Origin: Bacteroidota bacterium
Lineage (GTDB): Bacteria > Bacteroidota > Bacteroidia > UKL13-3
Direction: 5' to 3'
Assembly (NCBI GenBank): GCA_947453415.1
Contig: CANGGG010000031.1
Location: forward strand, 1 to 35,178
Length of the DNA stretch: 35,178 nucleotides
Shown: positions 8,905-18,125 of the stretch, piece by piece
Layout: every line of letters starts with the position of its first letter
How positions within the stretch are numbered: the first letter of the stretch is position 1
Position numbers and translations under genes: made by a program
Notes under the pieces: generated by a model
Told to the model about the DNA's origin: nothing
Database searches by the model: none
Seen by the model: only the letters and a program-made list of their open reading frames with translations

Positions 8905-10359
8905 ATGAACATAAAATACCATCCAATCATTTTATTTTTATTGCTTTTTGTACCTTTAAAATTATTGATAGCACAACAAAATGATGTGCAGTTAACTTTT
9001 CAAGATTTTTACCAATTGGTAGTGCAAAATCATCCCATTGCAAAGCAAGCAAACTTACTAAATGATAATGCTAAAGCTGAGTTATTAGCAGCCCGTGGCG
9101 CGTTTGATCCAATTATAAGTTCAACTTATGAAAGTAAATTTACAAATGGTAACAACTACTATACTTATTTTGAACCACAGCTAAAAATTCCAACAATTAT
9201 TGGCATAGATATAAAAGCCGGTTACGACCAAAGTGATGGAATTGCGGTAAGCAACGAAAGAGCAAAAATGATTGAAAGCAATGGCGTAATTAGTCAACAA
9301 TATGGCGAATATGGTATGTTTTATGGCGGAGTAAGCGTACCAATTTTACGAGGATTACAAACTGATAGCCGAAGAACAATATTGCGTCAAGCTCAATATT
9401 TACAAGGATTAAATGAAGCGGAACGCATAAAAATTATTAATAAATTATTTTTAAATGCAGCCAAAGATTATTGGGAATGGCAGTTGGCCTATGAAAAATT
9501 ACGATTGACACAATTCAATTACAAATTAGCAGAAACCCGTTTCAATTTTATAAGCAATAGAATAAAAGCTGGCGAAGATAAACCCATTGACAGCATAGAA
9601 GCTTTGATTGAATTAAAACGCAGAGAAACTATTTTACTTGAATCGGAATTAGAGTTTAAAAATAATGGCTTCAATTTGAGTAACTACTTATGGAATAATA
9701 AAAACGAGGCCTTGCAATTAAAGGAAAACATTACACCATCGGAACAAGGAAATGAGATAAATACAATTGCCAATGATTCCATTCAAAGAATGGTAAATTT
9801 TGCAGAAAATAATCATCCTGAATTACAGAAATTGCAGTTTAAAAACAAGCAATTAATGATGGATAAAAAATTAGCAATTGAAAACATAAAACCTCAATTA
9901 AATGTAGAATATTACCCATTCCAAACTTATAGCAAAGGAAGTTTAAACGATGTAAATAATGTGTTTGGTAGGCAATATAAAATGGGTGCAAGTTTTTACA
10001 GCAGTTTGTTTTTAAGAAAAGAAAGAGGAAAACTACAACAAGCAAATATTAAACTTAAAAACAATGATTTTGAAACACAACTTACTAAACGAGAAATTGT
10101 AAATTCGGTTTTTATGAGCTATAATCAATTAAAAAATTTAGAACAATTATTGGCCATTCAACAGGTATTAGTATTGAACGCCATTACCTTAAGAAATGCA
10201 GAAGAAACTAGGTTTGAAAGTGGTGAAAGCTCACTTTTTTTAGTAAACTCGCGTGAACGAAGTTTGATAGAAGCACAAATAAAACAAGCAGAAATTAAAA
10301 GTAAATATGCCAAAGCAAAAGTTCAATTGCAATGGGCTAGTGGAATAAAAATGTTTTAG
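8905..10359 (+). CDS. TolC-family outer-membrane efflux protein
   Basis: A 484-residue outer-membrane channel of the TolC type. The signal peptide is clear (MNIKYHPIILFLLLFVPLKLLIAQ). The mature part has two long helical repeats with DYWEWQLAYEKL and a TRFxxGE-type motif in each half (TRFNFISNRIKAGEDKP and TRFESGESSLFLVNSRE), the duplicated OEP fold. It ends the operon. Its stop lies only 6 bp from the stop of the convergent sbtA-like gene, leaving no room for separate terminators. Confidence 0.88.
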   Translation: MNIKYHPIILFLLLFVPLKLLIAQQNDVQLTFQDFYQLVVQNHPIAKQANLLNDNAKAELLAARGAFDPIISSTYESKFTNGNNYYTYFEPQLKIPTIIGIDIKAGYDQSDGIAVSNERAKMIESNGVISQQYGEYGMFYGGVSVPILRGLQTDSRRTILRQAQYLQGLNEAERIKIINKLFLNAAKDYWEWQLAYEKLRLTQFNYKLAETRFNFISNRIKAGEDKPIDSIEALIELKRRETILLESELEFKNNGFNLSNYLWNNKNEALQLKENITPSEQGNEINTIANDSIQRMVNFAENNHPELQKLQFKNKQLMMDKKLAIENIKPQLNVEYYPFQTYSKGSLNDVNNVFGRQYKMGASFYSSLFLRKERGKLQQANIKLKNNDFETQLTKREIVNSVFMSYNQLKNLEQLLAIQQVLVLNAITLRNAEETRFESGESSLFLVNSRERSLIEAQIKQAEIKSKYAKAKVQLQWASGIKMF

Positions 10360-10365
10360 AGCAAC

Positions 10366-11328
10366 TTAAAAGTGTTGAACTATTAAAAAATATATTGGCA
10401 TTCCAATGGTAATATTTACAGGGAAAGTTACAGCAAGTGCCATAGGCAAATAAAGTCCGGGATTTGCCTTAGGAACATTAATTTTCATGGCTGCTGGCAC
10501 AGCAATGTATGATGCACTTGCGGCCAATACAGCAAACATAAAACGGTTAGTAATATCTGAAGTAACAAACGAACTTATATAAGCAAAAATACAGCCATTA
10601 ATAATTGGAATTATAATGGCAAACAGAAAAGGAAACCATCCAAATGAAAAGAAAGACTTTAATTTTTTTCCACTTGAAATTCCCATATCTAGTAAAAAAA
10701 TAGCCAAAAATCCTTTGAACAAATCGGTGGTAAAGGGCTTAATTCCTTCCGCTTGTTTATCGCTTGCTAATAGTCCAATTGTTAAACTTCCTAAAATCAA
10801 CAATACACTTCCATTGGTTAATGAATGTTTGAGCACATCGTGTTTTTTAACAGTATTAACTTCCTCTTTATTAAAAATAGAGATTAACACTAAACCAATG
10901 ATAATAGCAGGAGATTCCATTAAAGCCATAATTGCAACCATATGTCCGTGCAAACCTAATTGGTGTGATTCAAGGTAAGAAACAGCTGTTACAAAAGTTA
11001 CAGCGCTTACTGAACCATATGCCGCAGCTATTGCACCTGCATCAAAAACATTTAATTTTCGTTTTAAAATAAAAAAAGTGTAAAAAGGAATTATTAACGA
11101 AATGAAAATGCCAAATAACATGGACCATAAAATTTCAGTTGTAAATGTTTCATGCGATAGCTCTTGACCACCTTTAAATCCAATAGAAAAAAGCAAATAA
11201 ATAGTAATAAACTTTGATGAATTAGCGGGTATTTCTAAATCGCTTTTTAAATAAACAGCAACGATGCCAAGTACAAAAAAAAGCAATGCAGGATTTCTGA
11301 GATTTTCAATTAGAAAATTGATGTTCAT
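10366..11328 (-). CDS. sbtA: SbtA-type sodium-dependent bicarbonate transporter
   Basis: A 320-residue inner-membrane protein with about ten hydrophobic segments, of the SbtA/DUF897 family. Cyanobacterial members import bicarbonate with sodium. Both duplicated core motifs are visible: AYGSVSAVTFVTA (about 103-115) and ASASYIAVPAAMKINVPKANP (about 270-290). The cytoplasmic loop between the halves is short (about 152-170) compared with the cyanobacterial protein. No SbtB (PII-like) gene is adjacent. It is the last gene of a six-gene run and starts 12 bp after pyrC. In a heterotroph it could feed carbamoyl-phosphate synthase and biotin carboxylases; that role is inferred. The first 15 codons have a second copy at 16421-16465. 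Confidence 0.85.
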   Translation of the reverse strand: MNINFLIENLRNPALLFFVLGIVAVYLKSDLEIPANSSKFITIYLLFSIGFKGGQELSHETFTTEILWSMLFGIFISLIIPFYTFFILKRKLNVFDAGAIAAAYGSVSAVTFVTAVSYLESHQLGLHGHMVAIMALMESPAIIIGLVLISIFNKEEVNTVKKHDVLKHSLTNGSVLLILGSLTIGLLASDKQAEGIKPFTTDLFKGFLAIFLLDMGISSGKKLKSFFSFGWFPFLFAIIIPIINGCIFAYISSFVTSDITNRFMFAVLAASASYIAVPAAMKINVPKANPGLYLPMALAVTFPVNITIGMPIYFLIVQHF

Positions 11329-11340
11329 ATAATTTTTTTG

Positions 11341-12687
11341 TTATCTTATTTTTGAGAATTTAAGTCTTTTTCCTTTGTTATTTTCATGGAATTTACCTTG
11401 GTCATAAACCAAGTTTCCATTGACAAATGTTTTAATAATTTTACTATTAAAGCATTGATTTAAGTATGGCGACCATCCACATTTATAAAGAATGTTTTCA
11501 GGTGTTACCACCCATTCTTTATTTAAATCTACTAAAACAATATCGGCATAATACCCTTCCCGAATATAGCCCCGTTCTTTGATTCTATAAATTTCTGCAA
11601 CGTGATGACTCATTTTTTCAGCAATTTTTTCAATACTGATTTTACCTTGATGATAAAGGTTTAGCATTGCTGGCAAAGCATGTTGAACCAATGGACCGCC
11701 AGACATTGACTTGAAATATGAACCACTTTTTTCTTCAATTGTATGTGGGGCATGATCTGTTGCAATGATATCAAGTGTGTTATTCAAAAGTGCCGCAAGT
11801 AATCCGTTTTTATCTTCCTCCGTTTTAATTGCAGGATTCCATTTAATTTTAGCCCCCAATCTTTCATAATCTTTATCTGAAAACCAAAGATGATGGATGC
11901 ATGCTTCTGCAGTAATTCTTTTTTCTCTAACAGGCAATTTGTTTTCAAACAAATTGGCTTCTGCAAGGGTAGAAATATGAAATAAATGCAGGCGGTTATT
12001 GTATTTTTTTGCGATTTCTAAAACGCGTTTTGTGGCTGCATAACAAGCTTCTTCACTTCTTATTTTTGGATGAAATTTAAAGGGGATATTTTCCCCATAT
12101 TGTTTGCGGTAATGGTTTGTATTGTTTTTAATGATTATATCGTCTTCACAGTGCAATGCAACCAAAGAATCTGTTCGAGAGAAAAGTGTTTCTAAAAATT
12201 CCGGATAATTTGCCAAAATGCCCTCATCATTATTAAAATATAATCCATCATCAGTTATTCCACAAACATTTTCATTGTCAGTTTTTAAAGCTTCTTCTAA
12301 ATTGTTTTGATTGATTCCCATAAAAAAGGAATAGTTAGCCAAAGATGTTTTTGATGCTATGGAATATTTCTCCTCTAACAACACTTGCGTTAATGTATTT
12401 GGAATGGTGTTTGGCATTTCCATAAAAGAGGTTATACCACCGGCTAATGCTGCCCTTGATTCGGAGTAAATATTACCTTTATGGGTTAAACCTGGCTCAC
12501 GAAAATGAACTTGGTCATCAATTATTCCGGGTAAAAGATATAAACCTTTTGCATCAATAATATGAGCATTATTATCATTAATAACAGGAGCAATATTTTC
12601 AATTCTTTCACCAATAATTAACACATCGGCAACTGTAATTTTGCCTTCATTAACTATGTGTGCTTGCTTTATTATTATTCTTTTCAT
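11341..12687 (-). CDS. pyrC: Dihydroorotase
   Basis: Closes carbamoyl-aspartate to dihydroorotate in pyrimidine synthesis. It is a 448-residue amidohydrolase. Metal/substrate motifs are DDQVHFREPG (57-66), HCED (179-182), FHIST (236-240) and ATDHAPHT (309-316, Asp311). Two positions differ from many dihydroorotases: the first His of D-x-H-x-H is Gln59, and the block normally K-x-FMGSSTGNM is GITDDGLYF (143-151), so there is no carboxylated lysine there. I recall this variant from other Bacteroidota dihydroorotases, so it is probably functional. Hydantoinase or allantoinase is less likely because of EMPNT and SMSGGPLVQHALPAML. It sits 8 bp after the DUF6671-like gene. Confidence 0.9.
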   Translation of the reverse strand: MKRIIIKQAHIVNEGKITVADVLIIGERIENIAPVINDNNAHIIDAKGLYLLPGIIDDQVHFREPGLTHKGNIYSESRAALAGGITSFMEMPNTIPNTLTQVLLEEKYSIASKTSLANYSFFMGINQNNLEEALKTDNENVCGITDDGLYFNNDEGILANYPEFLETLFSRTDSLVALHCEDDIIIKNNTNHYRKQYGENIPFKFHPKIRSEEACYAATKRVLEIAKKYNNRLHLFHISTLAEANLFENKLPVREKRITAEACIHHLWFSDKDYERLGAKIKWNPAIKTEEDKNGLLAALLNNTLDIIATDHAPHTIEEKSGSYFKSMSGGPLVQHALPAMLNLYHQGKISIEKIAEKMSHHVAEIYRIKERGYIREGYYADIVLVDLNKEWVVTPENILYKCGWSPYLNQCFNSKIIKTFVNGNLVYDQGKFHENNKGKRLKFSKIR

Positions 12688-12695
12688 AATAGTAT

Positions 12696-13532
12696 TTATG
12701 GGTTACAAATATCACAGTACATTGGATTTTCCGTCTGTTTTCCATGAGGATATGTTTCTTCTTTGGTGAAGGAACATTTATGACAAGAAAAAATAAAACT
12801 TAAAATACTTCTTGTTGGAAAACGACATACCGAACAGGGTAATCCATGTTTTGCTTCAGTAATTCCAAATCCGGGCATTTGGCAATCCGGACATCGACTG
12901 TTTATTTTTTCAATCAATTTTTTAGTTGCACGCGCTATTACTTTCATTCTTGTAGGATTATACATAGCCCGCATGTCTGTTTCTATATATACTTTTCCGC
13001 CATCAGAAATGAAATGAGAAAAAACGCTTTTTAATTGATCTAAATTGGTTATGCCTTTTACAATGTTACTGTAATCAGCTTTTGATTTTCTAAGAATCAA
13101 GCCATGAGAAGGAAAGTTTGCTTTGCTTGCAAAATCATTTAATTCGGTTTCTGTTTGAATTATTGAACCATTGAAATTAGTTTCATTACTTATTTCCCTG
13201 ACTACAATTTCTAAATTATTCTTCTTGTCTATCATTAGCAAGAACTCATCATCTGCTGAAATAAATGGCAAAGATGGGTGAGGACCAAAAGAACCTTCAC
13301 TGGCAATGGCTAAATCACAATGATTTAATTCCATTGCCATCAGGCACTTGATTTTTGCGGTAGTAATAGGGTCGAATTTTCTTTCCACCTCACCGGTAAA
13401 AGTGCCAAGTTTATCAGTATCTAAATTAGAAGCAACAAAACATTTTACGGCCAATTCTTTTTCTAAAATAGGTGCAAACACTTTTTCCTTTTGGTGTTTA
13501 GTTGCAATAATTAAATGTCTTCCCTCAAACAT
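12696..13532 (-). CDS. DUF6671-like protein with double zinc ribbon
   Basis: A 278-residue protein of unknown function. The N-terminal domain (1-200) has conserved-looking motifs GTFTGEVERKFDP (43-55), ASEGSFGPHPSLPFI (77-91) and GLILRKSKADYSNIVKGI (144-161). The C-terminal quarter carries four C-x-x-C pairs (C214/C217, C233/C236, C250/C253, C273/C276), enough for two zinc sites. The motifs match my memory of DUF6671 proteins, but this could not be searched. It is wedged between a 57-aa membrane protein (2-bp gap) and pyrC (8-bp gap). No enzyme activity can be assigned. Confidence 0.75.
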   Translation of the reverse strand: MFEGRHLIIATKHQKEKVFAPILEKELAVKCFVASNLDTDKLGTFTGEVERKFDPITTAKIKCLMAMELNHCDLAIASEGSFGPHPSLPFISADDEFLLMIDKKNNLEIVVREISNETNFNGSIIQTETELNDFASKANFPSHGLILRKSKADYSNIVKGITNLDQLKSVFSHFISDGGKVYIETDMRAMYNPTRMKVIARATKKLIEKINSRCPDCQMPGFGITEAKHGLPCSVCRFPTRSILSFIFSCHKCSFTKEETYPHGKQTENPMYCDICNP

Positions 13533-13534
13533 TT

Positions 13535-13708
13535 TTATTTAATTTTCTTACTATTTTCATTTAAAAATTTGATTGCTAAAGCACCCATTATTATTCCAAA
13601 GGAAGAAAAAAGCTGTACGTTTGACTTATCATTTATTGTAAATGCCATTATCAAAAAGGCAAGCATAAGGAATAAGCAAAAAACTATTTTTATTTGATAA
13701 AAGTTCAT
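13535..13708 (-). CDS. Small membrane protein, 57 aa, unknown
   Basis: A short open frame, ATG at 13708 to TAA at 13535, encoding 57 residues. Two hydrophobic stretches are visible: KIVFCLFLMLAFLIMAF (about 7-23) and LFSSFGIIMGALAIKFL (about 33-49). A short NDKSN turn lies between them and the tail is basic (ENSKKIK). Its start comes 2 bp after the TAG of the 80-aa gene (TAGTGATG), and its stop lies 2 bp before the next ATG. That tight spacing on both sides is strong evidence it is a real, translationally coupled gene. I do not recognise the family; a two-helix membrane hairpin is the only structural statement I can make. Confidence 0.7.
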   Translation of the reverse strand: MNFYQIKIVFCLFLMLAFLIMAFTINDKSNVQLFSSFGIIMGALAIKFLNENSKKIK

Positions 13709-13710
13709 CA

Positions 13711-13953
13711 CTAATCAACTTTAATTATTACTTCAACTTTTACACTTTGGGTTTTCGAATTGATAATTTTCCTCAATTCAATAAGTTCTTTTTGTAATTC
13801 CTTTATTTTAGTTTCCCTAGTTTTTATATCCTCTTCATTACTATGGCTATTTATTTTGCGCTCATGATATTTTATTTTTATATGTATCATTTGAGCTATA
13901 AGTTCTACAGCATCTTGGGAGTTAAATTCTCCTTTTATAAGTTGAATTTCCAT
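13711..13953 (-). CDS. Small coiled-coil protein, 80 aa, unknown
   Basis: An 80-residue, soluble, strongly charged protein. It begins MEIQLIKGEFNSQDAVELIA. The middle (about 30-70) is rich in Lys/Glu with heptad-like leucines and isoleucines (NEEDIKTRETKIKELQKELI), so a coiled coil is likely. The short C-terminus (SVKVEVIIKVD) looks like a beta strand. It starts 10 bp after the isocitrate dehydrogenase stop and ends 2 bp before the 57-aa membrane protein, so it should be co-expressed with both. I recall similar unnamed small proteins in Bacteroidota but no function. Confidence 0.75.
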   Translation of the reverse strand: MEIQLIKGEFNSQDAVELIAQMIHIKIKYHERKINSHSNEEDIKTRETKIKELQKELIELRKIINSKTQSVKVEVIIKVD

Positions 13954-13963
13954 ATAGCTACGA

Positions 13964-15400
13964 TTATTGCCCTTGGCCTAATGAATATGCTACCTTACCA
14001 TCAAATGAATATAGGTTTTCTGTTTTTATGCTATCAATGTTTTCATTGAGTGCATTATTCAAAAGTTCTATGATGTTTGATTTATTTATTTCAGCATTTT
14101 CCGAAGGTTTAAAGCGACATCTCCAATGATCTGTACAAAATGTTTCATTAAAGCCATCTGGCCATACTTTAATTCCTCTGTTTGTAATCATAGAAAGTTT
14201 TAGTACATTACTTTCTATTTTTTTAATTTTTCCAGCTAATTCGTTGGGATTAGCACCGCTCCAATGAACAAAAATATCTACACCTACTAAATCTTTTTTT
14301 GCGGCAGGTTTACGCACATATTTTGGTAGGTTAAGGGCTGAATTATTTGCATAAGAAACAGGCTTTAATATATTTGGTTTTTGACCAAGATTTGAAATTA
14401 CCGCATTTGCAAATTCTTTGGTTCCTAGTTTTTGTCTACTGATTCCTTCTTTAAAAATATCGTAAGTATGATTTCCTTCTTCTAAAGTTTTAAGCCAAGC
14501 ATTTTGAACTTTTTCTGCTATTTCTGTTTGTCCAATATGATTTAACATCATAATGGCACCTTGTAATAATCCTGAGGGGTTGGCTACATTTTGTCCTGCT
14601 CTTCGAGGAGCGGAACCGTGTATTGCTTCAAACATAGCACATTCTTCACCTATATTTGCTGAGCCAGCTAAACCAACCGAACCTGTAATTTGTGCTGCTA
14701 CATCGCTTAATACATCGCCATATAAATTTGGCATTACAATTACATCAAAAATTTCTGGCGTGTCAGCCATTTTTGCTGCACCAATGTCTATTATCCAATG
14801 TTCATTTTCTATGTTTGGATATTCTTTGGCAATTTCATCAAACACTTGGTGAAACAAACCATCAGTTTGTTTCATAATATTGTCTTTAGTAAAACAAGTT
14901 ACTTTTTTGCGGTTTTGTTGTTTTGCATATTCAAAAGCATAACGAACTATTTTTTCACAACCGGGTCTACTAATTAGTTTTAAGCATTGTACTACTTCGT
15001 CTGTTTGTTGGTGTTCAATTCCCGCATATAAATCTTCTTCATTTTCTCTAACTATTACAATATCCATTACAGGATGTTTTGTACTTACAAAAGGATGCAA
15101 ACTCATGCAAGGCCTTACGTTTGAATACAATCCAAGAAACTTGCGAGTAGTTACATTTAAGCTTTTATAACCGCCACCTTGTGGAGTAGTGATAGGGGCT
15201 TTAAGGAAAATTTTGTTTTTTCTAATAGTTTCCCACGATTCAGATGCAATGCCAGAAGTATTACCTGCTAAATACACTTTTTCGCCTACTTCAATTTCAT
15301 CAATTTCGAGTTTGGCACCTGCTGCTAAAATAATTGCTAACGTGGCGTCCATTATCTCAGGACCAATTCCGTCTCCTTTTGCTACTGTTATTCTTGTCAT
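13964..15400 (-). CDS. icd: Isocitrate dehydrogenase, long-C-terminus form
   Basis: Oxidises isocitrate to 2-oxoglutarate and CO2. The core (1 to about 335) has the dehydrogenase motifs: KGDGIGPEI (8-16), the substrate loop SLNVTTRKF (Ser80, Asn82, Arg86), NVRP (94-97), YAGIEH (125-130) and the metal-binding NLYGDVLSDVAAQ (Asp229, Asp233). The cofactor-selecting stretch is HGSAPRRAGQNVANP (261-275). Arg266-Arg267 replace the Lys-Tyr of NADP enzymes and are compatible with NADP, but this is not proven. An extra C-terminal domain of about 140 residues (340-478) is present, as in the Thermus enzyme. It heads the six-gene run and is divergent from a LysR gene. Confidence 0.9.
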   Translation of the reverse strand: MTRITVAKGDGIGPEIMDATLAIILAAGAKLEIDEIEVGEKVYLAGNTSGIASESWETIRKNKIFLKAPITTPQGGGYKSLNVTTRKFLGLYSNVRPCMSLHPFVSTKHPVMDIVIVRENEEDLYAGIEHQQTDEVVQCLKLISRPGCEKIVRYAFEYAKQQNRKKVTCFTKDNIMKQTDGLFHQVFDEIAKEYPNIENEHWIIDIGAAKMADTPEIFDVIVMPNLYGDVLSDVAAQITGSVGLAGSANIGEECAMFEAIHGSAPRRAGQNVANPSGLLQGAIMMLNHIGQTEIAEKVQNAWLKTLEEGNHTYDIFKEGISRQKLGTKEFANAVISNLGQKPNILKPVSYANNSALNLPKYVRKPAAKKDLVGVDIFVHWSGANPNELAGKIKKIESNVLKLSMITNRGIKVWPDGFNETFCTDHWRCRFKPSENAEINKSNIIELLNNALNENIDSIKTENLYSFDGKVAYSLGQGQ

Positions 15401-15460
15401 GTTTTATTGTTTTAAGTTTAACACCGCAAAATTGACATTTCTAATTCATAAGTTTTTATT

Positions 15461-15468
15461 TATATTTG
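15461..15468 (+). promoter_or_regulatory. Candidate -7 box for the LysR gene
   Basis: TATATTTG lies 24 bp before the LysR start in the 92-bp divergent gap. The gap must also hold the promoter of the icd run, whose -7 box I could not pick out. A LysR regulator bound here could control both directions, but I see no convincing T-N11-A operator. Confidence 0.4.
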
Positions 15469-15492
15469 TAATGTAAACCATAAAAATAATTT

Positions 15493-16416
15493 ATGAACTA
15501 TACCTTAAATCAATTGCAAATATTTTTGAAAATTGTACAAACAAAAAGCGTAACAAAGGCCTCGGAAGAATTGAATCTTACCCAGCCAGCGGTTTCTATC
15601 CAATTGAAAAATTTGCAAGACCAATTTGACATTCCATTAACGGAAGTGGTAGGTCGAAAAATTTACATTACTGATTTTGGATTAGAGATTGCGGAAGCAG
15701 CTGAAAACATCATTAACCAAGTTTATGCCATTAACTATAAAACCTTAGCTTATAAGGGTCAATTAACAGGTCGTTTAAAGATTTCTGTAGTATCAACTGG
15801 AAAATATGTGATGCCTTACTTTTTAACCGAATTTATGCAGCAACATGACGGAATAGATTTATTGATGGATGTTACTAATAAAAATAAAGTGATTGAGAGT
15901 TTAGAAAACAATGAAATAGACTTTGCATTGGTTTCCATTTTGCCAAGTAAACTGAATATTGAGAAAATGGATTTACTCCAAAATAAATTATACTTGGTAG
16001 GTAGTTCCGAAAAAAAAATAAAAAAAAATACAAGTACAAAAGAAATATTTAAAGATTTGCCTTTAATTTTCAGAGAAAATGGTTCTGGTACACGACAAAC
16101 AATGGAAAATTTTATTGAACGCAATAAGATTTCAGCATTAAAAAAGATGGAGTTAACTTCCAATGAAGCTGTTAAACAAGCATTATTAGCGGGTTTAGGA
16201 TATTCAATTATGCCCTTAATTGGAATTAAAAACGAACTACACAACAATGAACTGCAAATTATTCCAATTAAAGGTCTTCCAATTAAAACAACTTGGAGTT
16301 TAATATGGTTAAAGGGAAAGAAACATGCTCCAGTTTCTAAATCTTTTTTAGAATATTTAAAAAAAGAAAAATCACAAATCGTACAAAATAAGTTTAGTTG
16401 GTATGAACAGTATTAA
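15493..16416 (+). CDS. LysR-family regulator, CbbR/CmpR-like
   Basis: A 307-residue LysR-type transcription factor. The winged helix is at 1-60 (LNQLQIFLKIVQTKSVTKA, then LNLTQPAVSIQLKNLQDQF). The effector domain spans about 90-300. EVVGRKIYITDFG after the helix and FRENGSGTRQTMENF (about 194-208) are features I associate with the CbbR/CmpR/RbcR branch, whose cyanobacterial members (CmpR, CcmR/NdhR) govern inorganic-carbon genes including sbtA. It is divergent from icd, 92 bp apart, and an sbtA remnant abuts its 3' end. Control of the icd-to-sbtA run is inferred from these neighbours. Confidence 0.82.
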   Translation: MNYTLNQLQIFLKIVQTKSVTKASEELNLTQPAVSIQLKNLQDQFDIPLTEVVGRKIYITDFGLEIAEAAENIINQVYAINYKTLAYKGQLTGRLKISVVSTGKYVMPYFLTEFMQQHDGIDLLMDVTNKNKVIESLENNEIDFALVSILPSKLNIEKMDLLQNKLYLVGSSEKKIKKNTSTKEIFKDLPLIFRENGSGTRQTMENFIERNKISALKKMELTSNEAVKQALLAGLGYSIMPLIGIKNELHNNELQIIPIKGLPIKTTWSLIWLKGKKHAPVSKSFLEYLKKEKSQIVQNKFSWYEQY

Positions 16417-16420
16417 AAAT

Positions 16421-16465
16421 TAATGCTGAATTTCTAAGATTTTCAATCAGGAAATTTATGTTCAT
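16421..16465 (-). pseudogene. Remnant of a second sbtA gene (first 15 codons)
   Basis: On the minus strand, ATG at 16465 opens MNINFLIENLRNSAL, matching MNINFLIENLRNPAL of the intact sbtA at 11328. By eye 38 of 45 bases agree. Five of the seven differences are synonymous; the other two, in one codon, give Pro to Ser. The similarity continues a few bases upstream of the ATG. It ends 4 bp from the LysR stop and the frame then runs into the antisense of LysR. The codon-biased differences show it descends from a translated sbtA copy, now truncated. Confidence 0.75.
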
Positions 16466-16535
16466 ATATTTTATTAATTATTTTTTTGAATTAATAATGC
16501 GTCACAAAAATAATCGTTAATAAATGTTTTCTAAT

Positions 16536-18125
16536 TTAACAAAACTCAAATTTATTTCCATCAAATAAACCTTTGTCGCTTAGTTTTAAATAAGGAATAA
16601 CTAACAATGCCATGAACGACAAACTCATGAAAGGCGCTCGCAAAGTGGACCCCAAAACTTGTTTACTAAAATGATCTAATTCGGTATAATCTTGGGCTAT
16701 ATCCCAAGCATCTTTGTTACTCATTAAACCAGCAATTGGAAGCGGTAAAACTTTGGTTTCAGAACCATTTACCGCACACAAACCACCTTTGTTTGTAATG
16801 ATTAAATTTACTGCCTTGCAAATTTCTTCATCGTTGGTGCCAACAGCAATTATATTATGACTATCGTGAGCAACTGATGAGGCGATAGCTCCCAACTTTA
16901 AACCAAAGTTTTTGATATATGAAATAGCAATGGGTTTTGTTTCGTATCTGTTAACCACTACAATTTTTAAAATATCGTTTTCAATGGTTAATTCACTTTT
17001 TGGAAATTCTAATTTATTAGTAATTAGTTGTCCATCTAAACATTCAATAACTAGCTCCTTTTCTTTTGGAAAATATTCAAAATCAATAAGTGTTTTTAAG
17101 TTTGTTTCAAAATAATTGATGGGTTCAATGCTTACTTTTTCAATGAAAGTTTTTCCATTTTCAGCCACTAATTCTCCCTTGATAAATGTTTTTTCAACGA
17201 TAAAATCTGTTAAATTATTGATAACAATGAAATCTGCTACATCGCCTAATTGCAAAGCACCCACAGGCATTTTATAATGGTGAATTGGATTGATACAAGC
17301 TACTTTTAACACATCAAACAAATTGTATCCAAGTGCAACAGCTCTTGCCACTAATTGATTAATATGGCCCAATAATAAACTATCAGGGTGTTTGTCATCG
17401 CTACAAAACATTAATTGATCAGCATGTAATTTCATTAAAGGAATAAGTGTATCAAAATTACGGGCGGCACTTCCCTCACGAATTATAATTTTCATTCCAA
17501 AAGCTATTTTATCCAATGCTTCCTCTAATGTAAAACATTCATGGTCGGTACTCATGCCTGCGTCAATGTATTGTTTTGCCTGCGCTCCGCGCAATCCTGG
17601 TGCATGTCCGTCAACAGGTTTATTGAACTTTTTTGCTACCGCAATTTTTGCCATTACTTCCTTATCCTTGAATAAAACTCCAGGGAAATTCATCATTTCG
17701 GCTAAGTATAAAATTTCCGGTTTGGCTAATAATATTTCAATATCAGCAGCATTAATGGTAGCACCTGCAGTTTCAAAAACAGTAGCAGGCACACAACTTG
17801 GGGCTCCAAAAAAGAAATGAAAAGGAACTTTATTCCCGTTGTTAATCATGAACTCCACCCCTTCCATTCCTAACACATTTGCTATTTCATGTGGATCGCT
17901 AATGGTGGCTATAGTTCCGTGAATAACTGCCATTCGCGCAAATTCACTGGGTACTAATAAACTGCTTTCAATATGTACATGCGAATCGATAAAACCAGGT
18001 AAAATAAAGTTTGTTAACGTTTCAGAAATTTCTGTAATGGCTGCAATGATTCCATTTTCAACGGTAATTTCTGCAGGGAAAATCCGTTGATTTAAAATGT
18101 CAATATAATTTGATTTTATTTTCAT
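16536..18125 (-). CDS. ade: Adenine deaminase
   Basis: Deaminates adenine to hypoxanthine in purine salvage. The 529-residue amidohydrolase has the metal site DSHVHIESS (Asp47, His49, His51) and [12 protein letters not shown] (about 75-86). Further motifs typical of the bacterial Ade family are [16 protein letters not shown] and [10 protein letters not shown]-terminal [15 protein letters not shown] follows. Length is at the shorter end for the family. It lies 124 bp downstream of hutI on the same strand, with a hairpin-containing gap between, and is probably separate from it. Confidence 0.92.

Follow-up and report, generated by a model that had tools for sequence, protein, structure and literature searches.

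The locus studied here raises the question of how the beginning of another sbtA gene came to lie against the stop codon of a lysR gene. In the window, i.e., the whole 35,178-bp stretch of DNA analysed, the genes are arranged in the order TolC(+), sbtA(-), pyrC(-), DUF6671(-), p80(-), idh(-), lysR(+), sbtA stub(-), ade(-) and hutI(-). The site is flanked on the left by the adenine deaminase gene ade (bp 16536–18125, minus strand) and on the right by a gene for a TolC-like outer-membrane protein, named from the reading of its sequence (bp 8905–10359, plus strand). Between them lie lysR (bp 15493–16416, plus strand), which is intact, four accessory genes on the minus strand, namely idh2 (bp 13964–15400), p80 (bp 13711–13953; an 80-aa protein with no Pfam or NCBIfam match), DUF6671 (bp 12696–13532) and pyrC2 (bp 11341–12687), and, as the right end of this cassette, a complete sbtA (bp 10366–11328, minus strand). 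The product of this complete copy, and of this copy only, matched the PF05982 profile over nearly its full length (E = 9e-115, residues 13–317) and the Slr1512 SbtA structures.

The stub is the start of a second, probably once-coding sbtA

The stub (bp 16421–16465, minus strand) corresponds to the first 15 codons of sbtA. Reading leftward from 16465, it has the sequence ATGAACATAAATTTCCTGATTGAAAATCTTAGAAATTCAGCATTA (MNINFLIENLRNSAL), and the start of the complete gene (from 11328, minus strand) is MNINFLIENLRNPAL; 38 of the 45 bases and, counted from the ATG, 14 of the 15 residues were equal, and the next best placement in the whole window, on both strands, gave at most 26 equal bases. These figures agree with the first-pass annotation, as does its statement that five of the seven differences are synonymous: they comprise five synonymous codons and one codon (TCA/CCT, Ser/Pro) that differs at two bases. 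The differences fell at codon positions 3, 3, 3, 3, 1, 3 and 3 (P = 0.007 for at least 6 of 7 at third positions under uniform change, by our own arithmetic), and dN was 0.028 versus a dS of about 1.65 (9 synonymous sites). Since 6 of about 9 synonymous sites differed versus 1 of 36 other sites, the parent of the stub most likely diverged mostly as a coding gene, in accordance with the proposal of a second, once-coding sbtA of which only the 5′ end is left. The residues I3, F5 and R11 occurred together in the stub and in only three of 82 sbtA starts, those of the window genome (G000) and of the close relatives G004 and G008.

Extension with BLAST lengthened the match to 51 bp (84%), reaching bp 16415 inside the lysR stop codon; the similarity therefore ends at 45–51 bp, at the lysR stop, and the remainder of the gene is missing. 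The frame of the stub continues to 23 codons (MNINFLIENLRNSALIFNTVHTN*). The C-terminus of the LysR protein, WYEQY, is common to relatives, in which the last residues are WYEQY or WYEQF and the 3′ flanks are otherwise unrelated. As lysR is native up to its stop codon, the cassette junction lies right after it, at a run of five T; such runs are common in AT-rich DNA, and as micro-homology this one would be weak. The stub could also have been carried in on the lysR flank of the cassette, but this was rejected, as in 13 relatives besides G004 the DNA 3′ of lysR contained no sbtA start. The possibility of a dispersed repeat, which the first-pass annotation had named as the alternative to look for, was rejected as well, because a 381-bp query around the stub, run against the entire window genome (99.99% complete), hit nothing beyond its own position and the start of sbtA.

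The ade-TolC site in close relatives

Five close genomes were compared (G000, G001, G004, G007 and G008), and the ade-TolC site showed four states among them. In G001 the site is empty, TolC following ade directly with about 46 bp between. In G007 (65% complete), the ade flank is as in G001 and is followed by a piece of 78 codons from the 5′ end of the neighbouring gene, o5304 (L129:1905–2162), HlyD and TolC being missing there; this piece is a second gene stub at the ade-TolC site. In G008 (94% complete), ade is followed by a 68-bp spacer, a complete sbtA and TolC, with no lysR cassette at the site and no lysR found in the genome. In G000 and G004, ade is followed by a 70-bp spacer (bp 16466–16535 in the window, minus strand), the stub, the cassette lysR-idh-p80-DUF6671-pyrC-sbtA and TolC. 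The first-pass annotation had suggested looking in related genomes for a full sbtA at this place, and G008 has one, directly after ade.

The spacers of G000 and G008 are homologous (alignment score 28 versus -3.8 ± 4.3 for shuffles, 0 of 2000 reaching it; still 0 of 2000 when the first 14 bases were left out), and in alignments neither of them resembled the empty-site flank of G001. On account of this homology on the ade side, the stub occupies the exact position of the complete sbtA of G008. Start-codon homology, loss of the remainder and a complete gene at the same position in a relative together mark the stub as a truncated remnant.

No orthologues of lysR, idh and DUF6671 were present in G001, G007 and G008, and none of p80 and pyrC2 was found in them, the absences from G007 and G001 (88% complete) carrying little weight because these genomes are incomplete. 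A separate dihydroorotase-like pyrC, about 54% identical to that of the cassette, is present in all these close genomes. The lack of lysR, idh and DUF6671 orthologues together with the separate pyrC everywhere identifies the cassette as accessory.

Recombination traces around the stub

The stub and spacer of G004 are the same as those of the window, the two sequences being identical over 119 bp. However, G000 and G004 (L131) show near-identity between 15.4 and 16.88 kb, a tract that takes in a large part of lysR as well as the ade end, and are diverged on both sides of it; the two stubs are thus not independent, and conservation of the stub as a sign of function was rejected. Inside lysR, a 54-bp patch (bp 15975–16028) has 13 differences between G000 and G004 (L131). 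The tract (bp 15400–16880) with its patch is a mosaic of recent exchange between these two genomes.

Orthologues near the site in G000, G004 and G008 mostly had a dS of 0.2–0.3. The region from DUF6671 to idh was far more different between G000 and G004 (dS up to 0.6), which suggests that it may have been replaced from another donor. The first 182 bases of sbtA (bp 11147–11328 in the window) were identical in G000 and G004 and were followed by 65 differing positions, pointing to a probable recombination border inside the gene. The sbtA of G008 was identical to the full copy of the window over the first 86 bases, with the first difference at position 87. The DUF6671 gene of G004 (L131:9383–10216) had a single in-frame TGA within the frame that was matched and is possibly a pseudogene.

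Proposed origin of the stub

We consider it probable that the stub is the left-junction recombination scar of an accessory cassette that was gained and lost at a former ade-adjacent sbtA. From the observed stub, spacer homology, complete sbtA of G008, empty site of G001 and accessory cassette, we infer the following order of events and mode of joining. The sbtA gene would originally have stood directly behind ade, as it does in G008 today, and the cassette lysR-idh-p80-DUF6671-pyrC-sbtA would then have joined the chromosome behind ade. The left join would have been made in the T run at the lysR stop, without long homology, which would have left some 15 codons of the sbtA next to ade, and the right join probably formed through sbtA homology, leaving a complete sbtA as the end of the cassette. 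On the right side sbtA is shared, but the sequences do not fix the crossover point within it.

Two orders of events would be compatible with such a scar. Either the duplicated state is the older one, G008 having dropped the cassette when the stretch from one sbtA start to the other was deleted, or G008 keeps the older state. The sequences mildly favour the former, because the start of the G008 sbtA is that of the full copy but its spacer is of the stub type, a combination that a crossover at TATATGAACAT, which is common to both sbtA starts, would give exactly. In addition, 6 of the 9 synonymous sites separate the stub from the full copy, and at the 20–30% rate of the orthologues at least 6 such hits would have a P of about 0.003–0.025 (own arithmetic). 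The preference stays mild, since the 45 bp hold only about 9 synonymous sites, and these genomes have evidently recombined with each other. In its strict form, the other order takes G008 as the untouched precursor, into which the cassette would have entered by homology-facilitated illegitimate recombination, using sbtA homology and a short-homology left join; this is a sub-case of the scar explanation and not exclusive of it. The ade-sbtA structure of G008, the spacer homology between G000 and G008 and the documented occurrence of such events with 3–10 bp of micro-homology (PMC3240628) all agree with it. However, the stub should then resemble the sbtA start of G008 at the level of orthologues, in conflict with the synonymous differences just given, and it is the supposedly incoming copy that is identical to G008 at the sbtA start. 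We regard this strict form as quite possible, though we lean against it.

The first-pass annotation had a second sbtA standing convergent to lysR and later lost save for its 5′ end; in the reading considered here, this copy was complete and filled the interval from lysR to ade before its deletion. The truncated, once-coding sbtA was borne out; a full copy convergent to this lysR was seen in no genome. The coding-type differences and the orientation of the stub fit such a copy, and a distant locus (L079) has sbtA convergent to lysR with 40 bp between. Nevertheless, no close genome shows this arrangement, G008 has sbtA at the site but no lysR in its genome, and the lysR stop codon would need to have been the exact end point of the deletion; we hold this course of events to be unlikely. 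Perhaps lysR never faced an intact sbtA, since G008 has sbtA but no lysR, and in G000 and G004 lysR stands opposite nothing more than the stub; the ade-adjacent sbtA could have been cut directly by the cassette junction. It is very improbable that the stub has a function, whether as a leader peptide of 23 codons or as a decoy RNA for regulators acting on the sbtA start region. Such a role would draw on the open frame with a start codon, on the exact copy in G004 and on TATTTTTG, a Bacteroidota -7-like string located 47 bp upstream, but the identity with G004 spans the whole exchanged tract and is uninformative on the stub, G008 and G001 have no stub, and TAnnTTTG was seen 61 times in the window. 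Most likely, the stub itself does nothing. As for chance, AT-rich DNA raises the background of similarity, yet the distance between 38 and 26 equal bases out of 45, the rare I3/F5/R11 trio and the full sbtA in the same position in G008, which refutes it, make this explanation practically negligible. The idea of duplication and loss in the first-pass annotation was right in outline, and its convergent full copy and regulatory inference found no support.

On the scar explanation, the ade-TolC interval might further be a hotspot for gain and loss, between close Bacteroidota relatives, of a cassette for bicarbonate uptake that brings along a CbbR/CmpR-like regulator, the two sbtA starts serving as direct repeats through which the cassette is dropped and sbtA is left behind a regulator-free spacer, as in G008; we offer this tentatively, as a somewhat unlikely extension.

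LysR and its relation to sbtA

The nearest solved relatives of the lysR product are the CbnR/CbbR-type rubisco operon regulator and CmpR. Its score fell far below the cut-off of the curated CbbR equivalog (NF045990, 178 bits versus 450), and the protein is therefore CbbR-like and not CbbR by the NCBIfam equivalog test. Among 80 sbtA loci from Bacteroidota, lysR was present in the fetched DNA of 55, and in 53 of these it was located upstream of and divergent from sbtA, 94 bp to 5.8 kb apart, and many of them have idh, DUF6671 or pyrC inside this interval. The two exceptions were L079, with the genes convergent, and L054, with both in the same direction.

A conserved block was located upstream of lysR, on the side of the divergent genes, at bp 15445–15482 (plus strand, within bp 15400–15492), near TTCATAAATTTTTATTTATATTTGTAATG. 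It is kept across some 56 non-redundant Bacteroidota loci, whether the divergent gene is idh, DUF6671 or sbtA, and a PWM built for it scored 44.2 at its own site, the runner-up in the window reaching 8.7. The block is likely to comprise the lysR promoter and a LysR-binding region (operator). The first-pass annotation had held that the stub ties the regulator to sbtA. The stub did not match the block, however, and as a LysR operator or sbtA regulatory element it was rejected, the PWM giving 5.1 at the stub spacer; in the ade-sbtA spacer of G008 it gave -4.9. It is the divergent order in 53 of 55 loci and the conserved block, not the stub, that support regulation, and LysR may on these grounds regulate sbtA or its operon. 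Searching the literature for SbtA in combination with LysR and Bacteroidetes yielded no publication. In cyanobacteria and autotrophs, SbtA likewise occurs with LysR proteins of the CmpR/CcmR/CbbR type, and the present locus similarly combines an SbtA-family transporter with a LysR nearest to the rubisco operon regulator and CmpR; it differs in belonging to Bacteroidota and in the presence of idh2, DUF6671 and pyrC2 in the interval from lysR to sbtA, and regulation here is read from gene order only. For function, this divergent LysR/SbtA module with its block, conserved across Bacteroidota, is more useful than the stub.

Comparison with known junctions

The stub shows where an accessory inorganic-carbon cassette meets the chromosome; truncated genes at the edges of cassettes, this one included, are commonplace and reflect the gain and loss of genes. 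In Vibrio T6SS loci, displacement of effector modules leaves gene remnants (PMC5361080). There, as here, the incoming module ends beside a truncated resident gene, and the region is accessory and variable between close relatives; the shared homology on one side and the non-homologous join on the other probably have their counterparts here too. However, 3′ parts or immunity genes persist in arrays in Vibrio, whereas here it is the 5′ end of a transporter gene that was left, with nothing retained for protection. In homology-facilitated illegitimate recombination, joins are made with one-sided homology and 3–10 bp of micro-homology (PMC3240628), probably similar to the present site, where one end would be homologous (sbtA) and the other joined at very short or no homology; typically about 1 kb is replaced by about 1 kb, whereas here about 5 kb would have been gained by such a mechanism, with a full sbtA left. 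With the four close relatives, the ade-TolC site presents empty, sbtA-only and full-cassette states, which makes it useful for studying how cassettes move. It was also observed that a second dihydroorotase and an isocitrate dehydrogenase, both accessory, travel with sbtA, DUF6671 and the 80-aa protein, and the gene set at bp 11341–15400 is possibly a bicarbonate/CO2-supply cassette.
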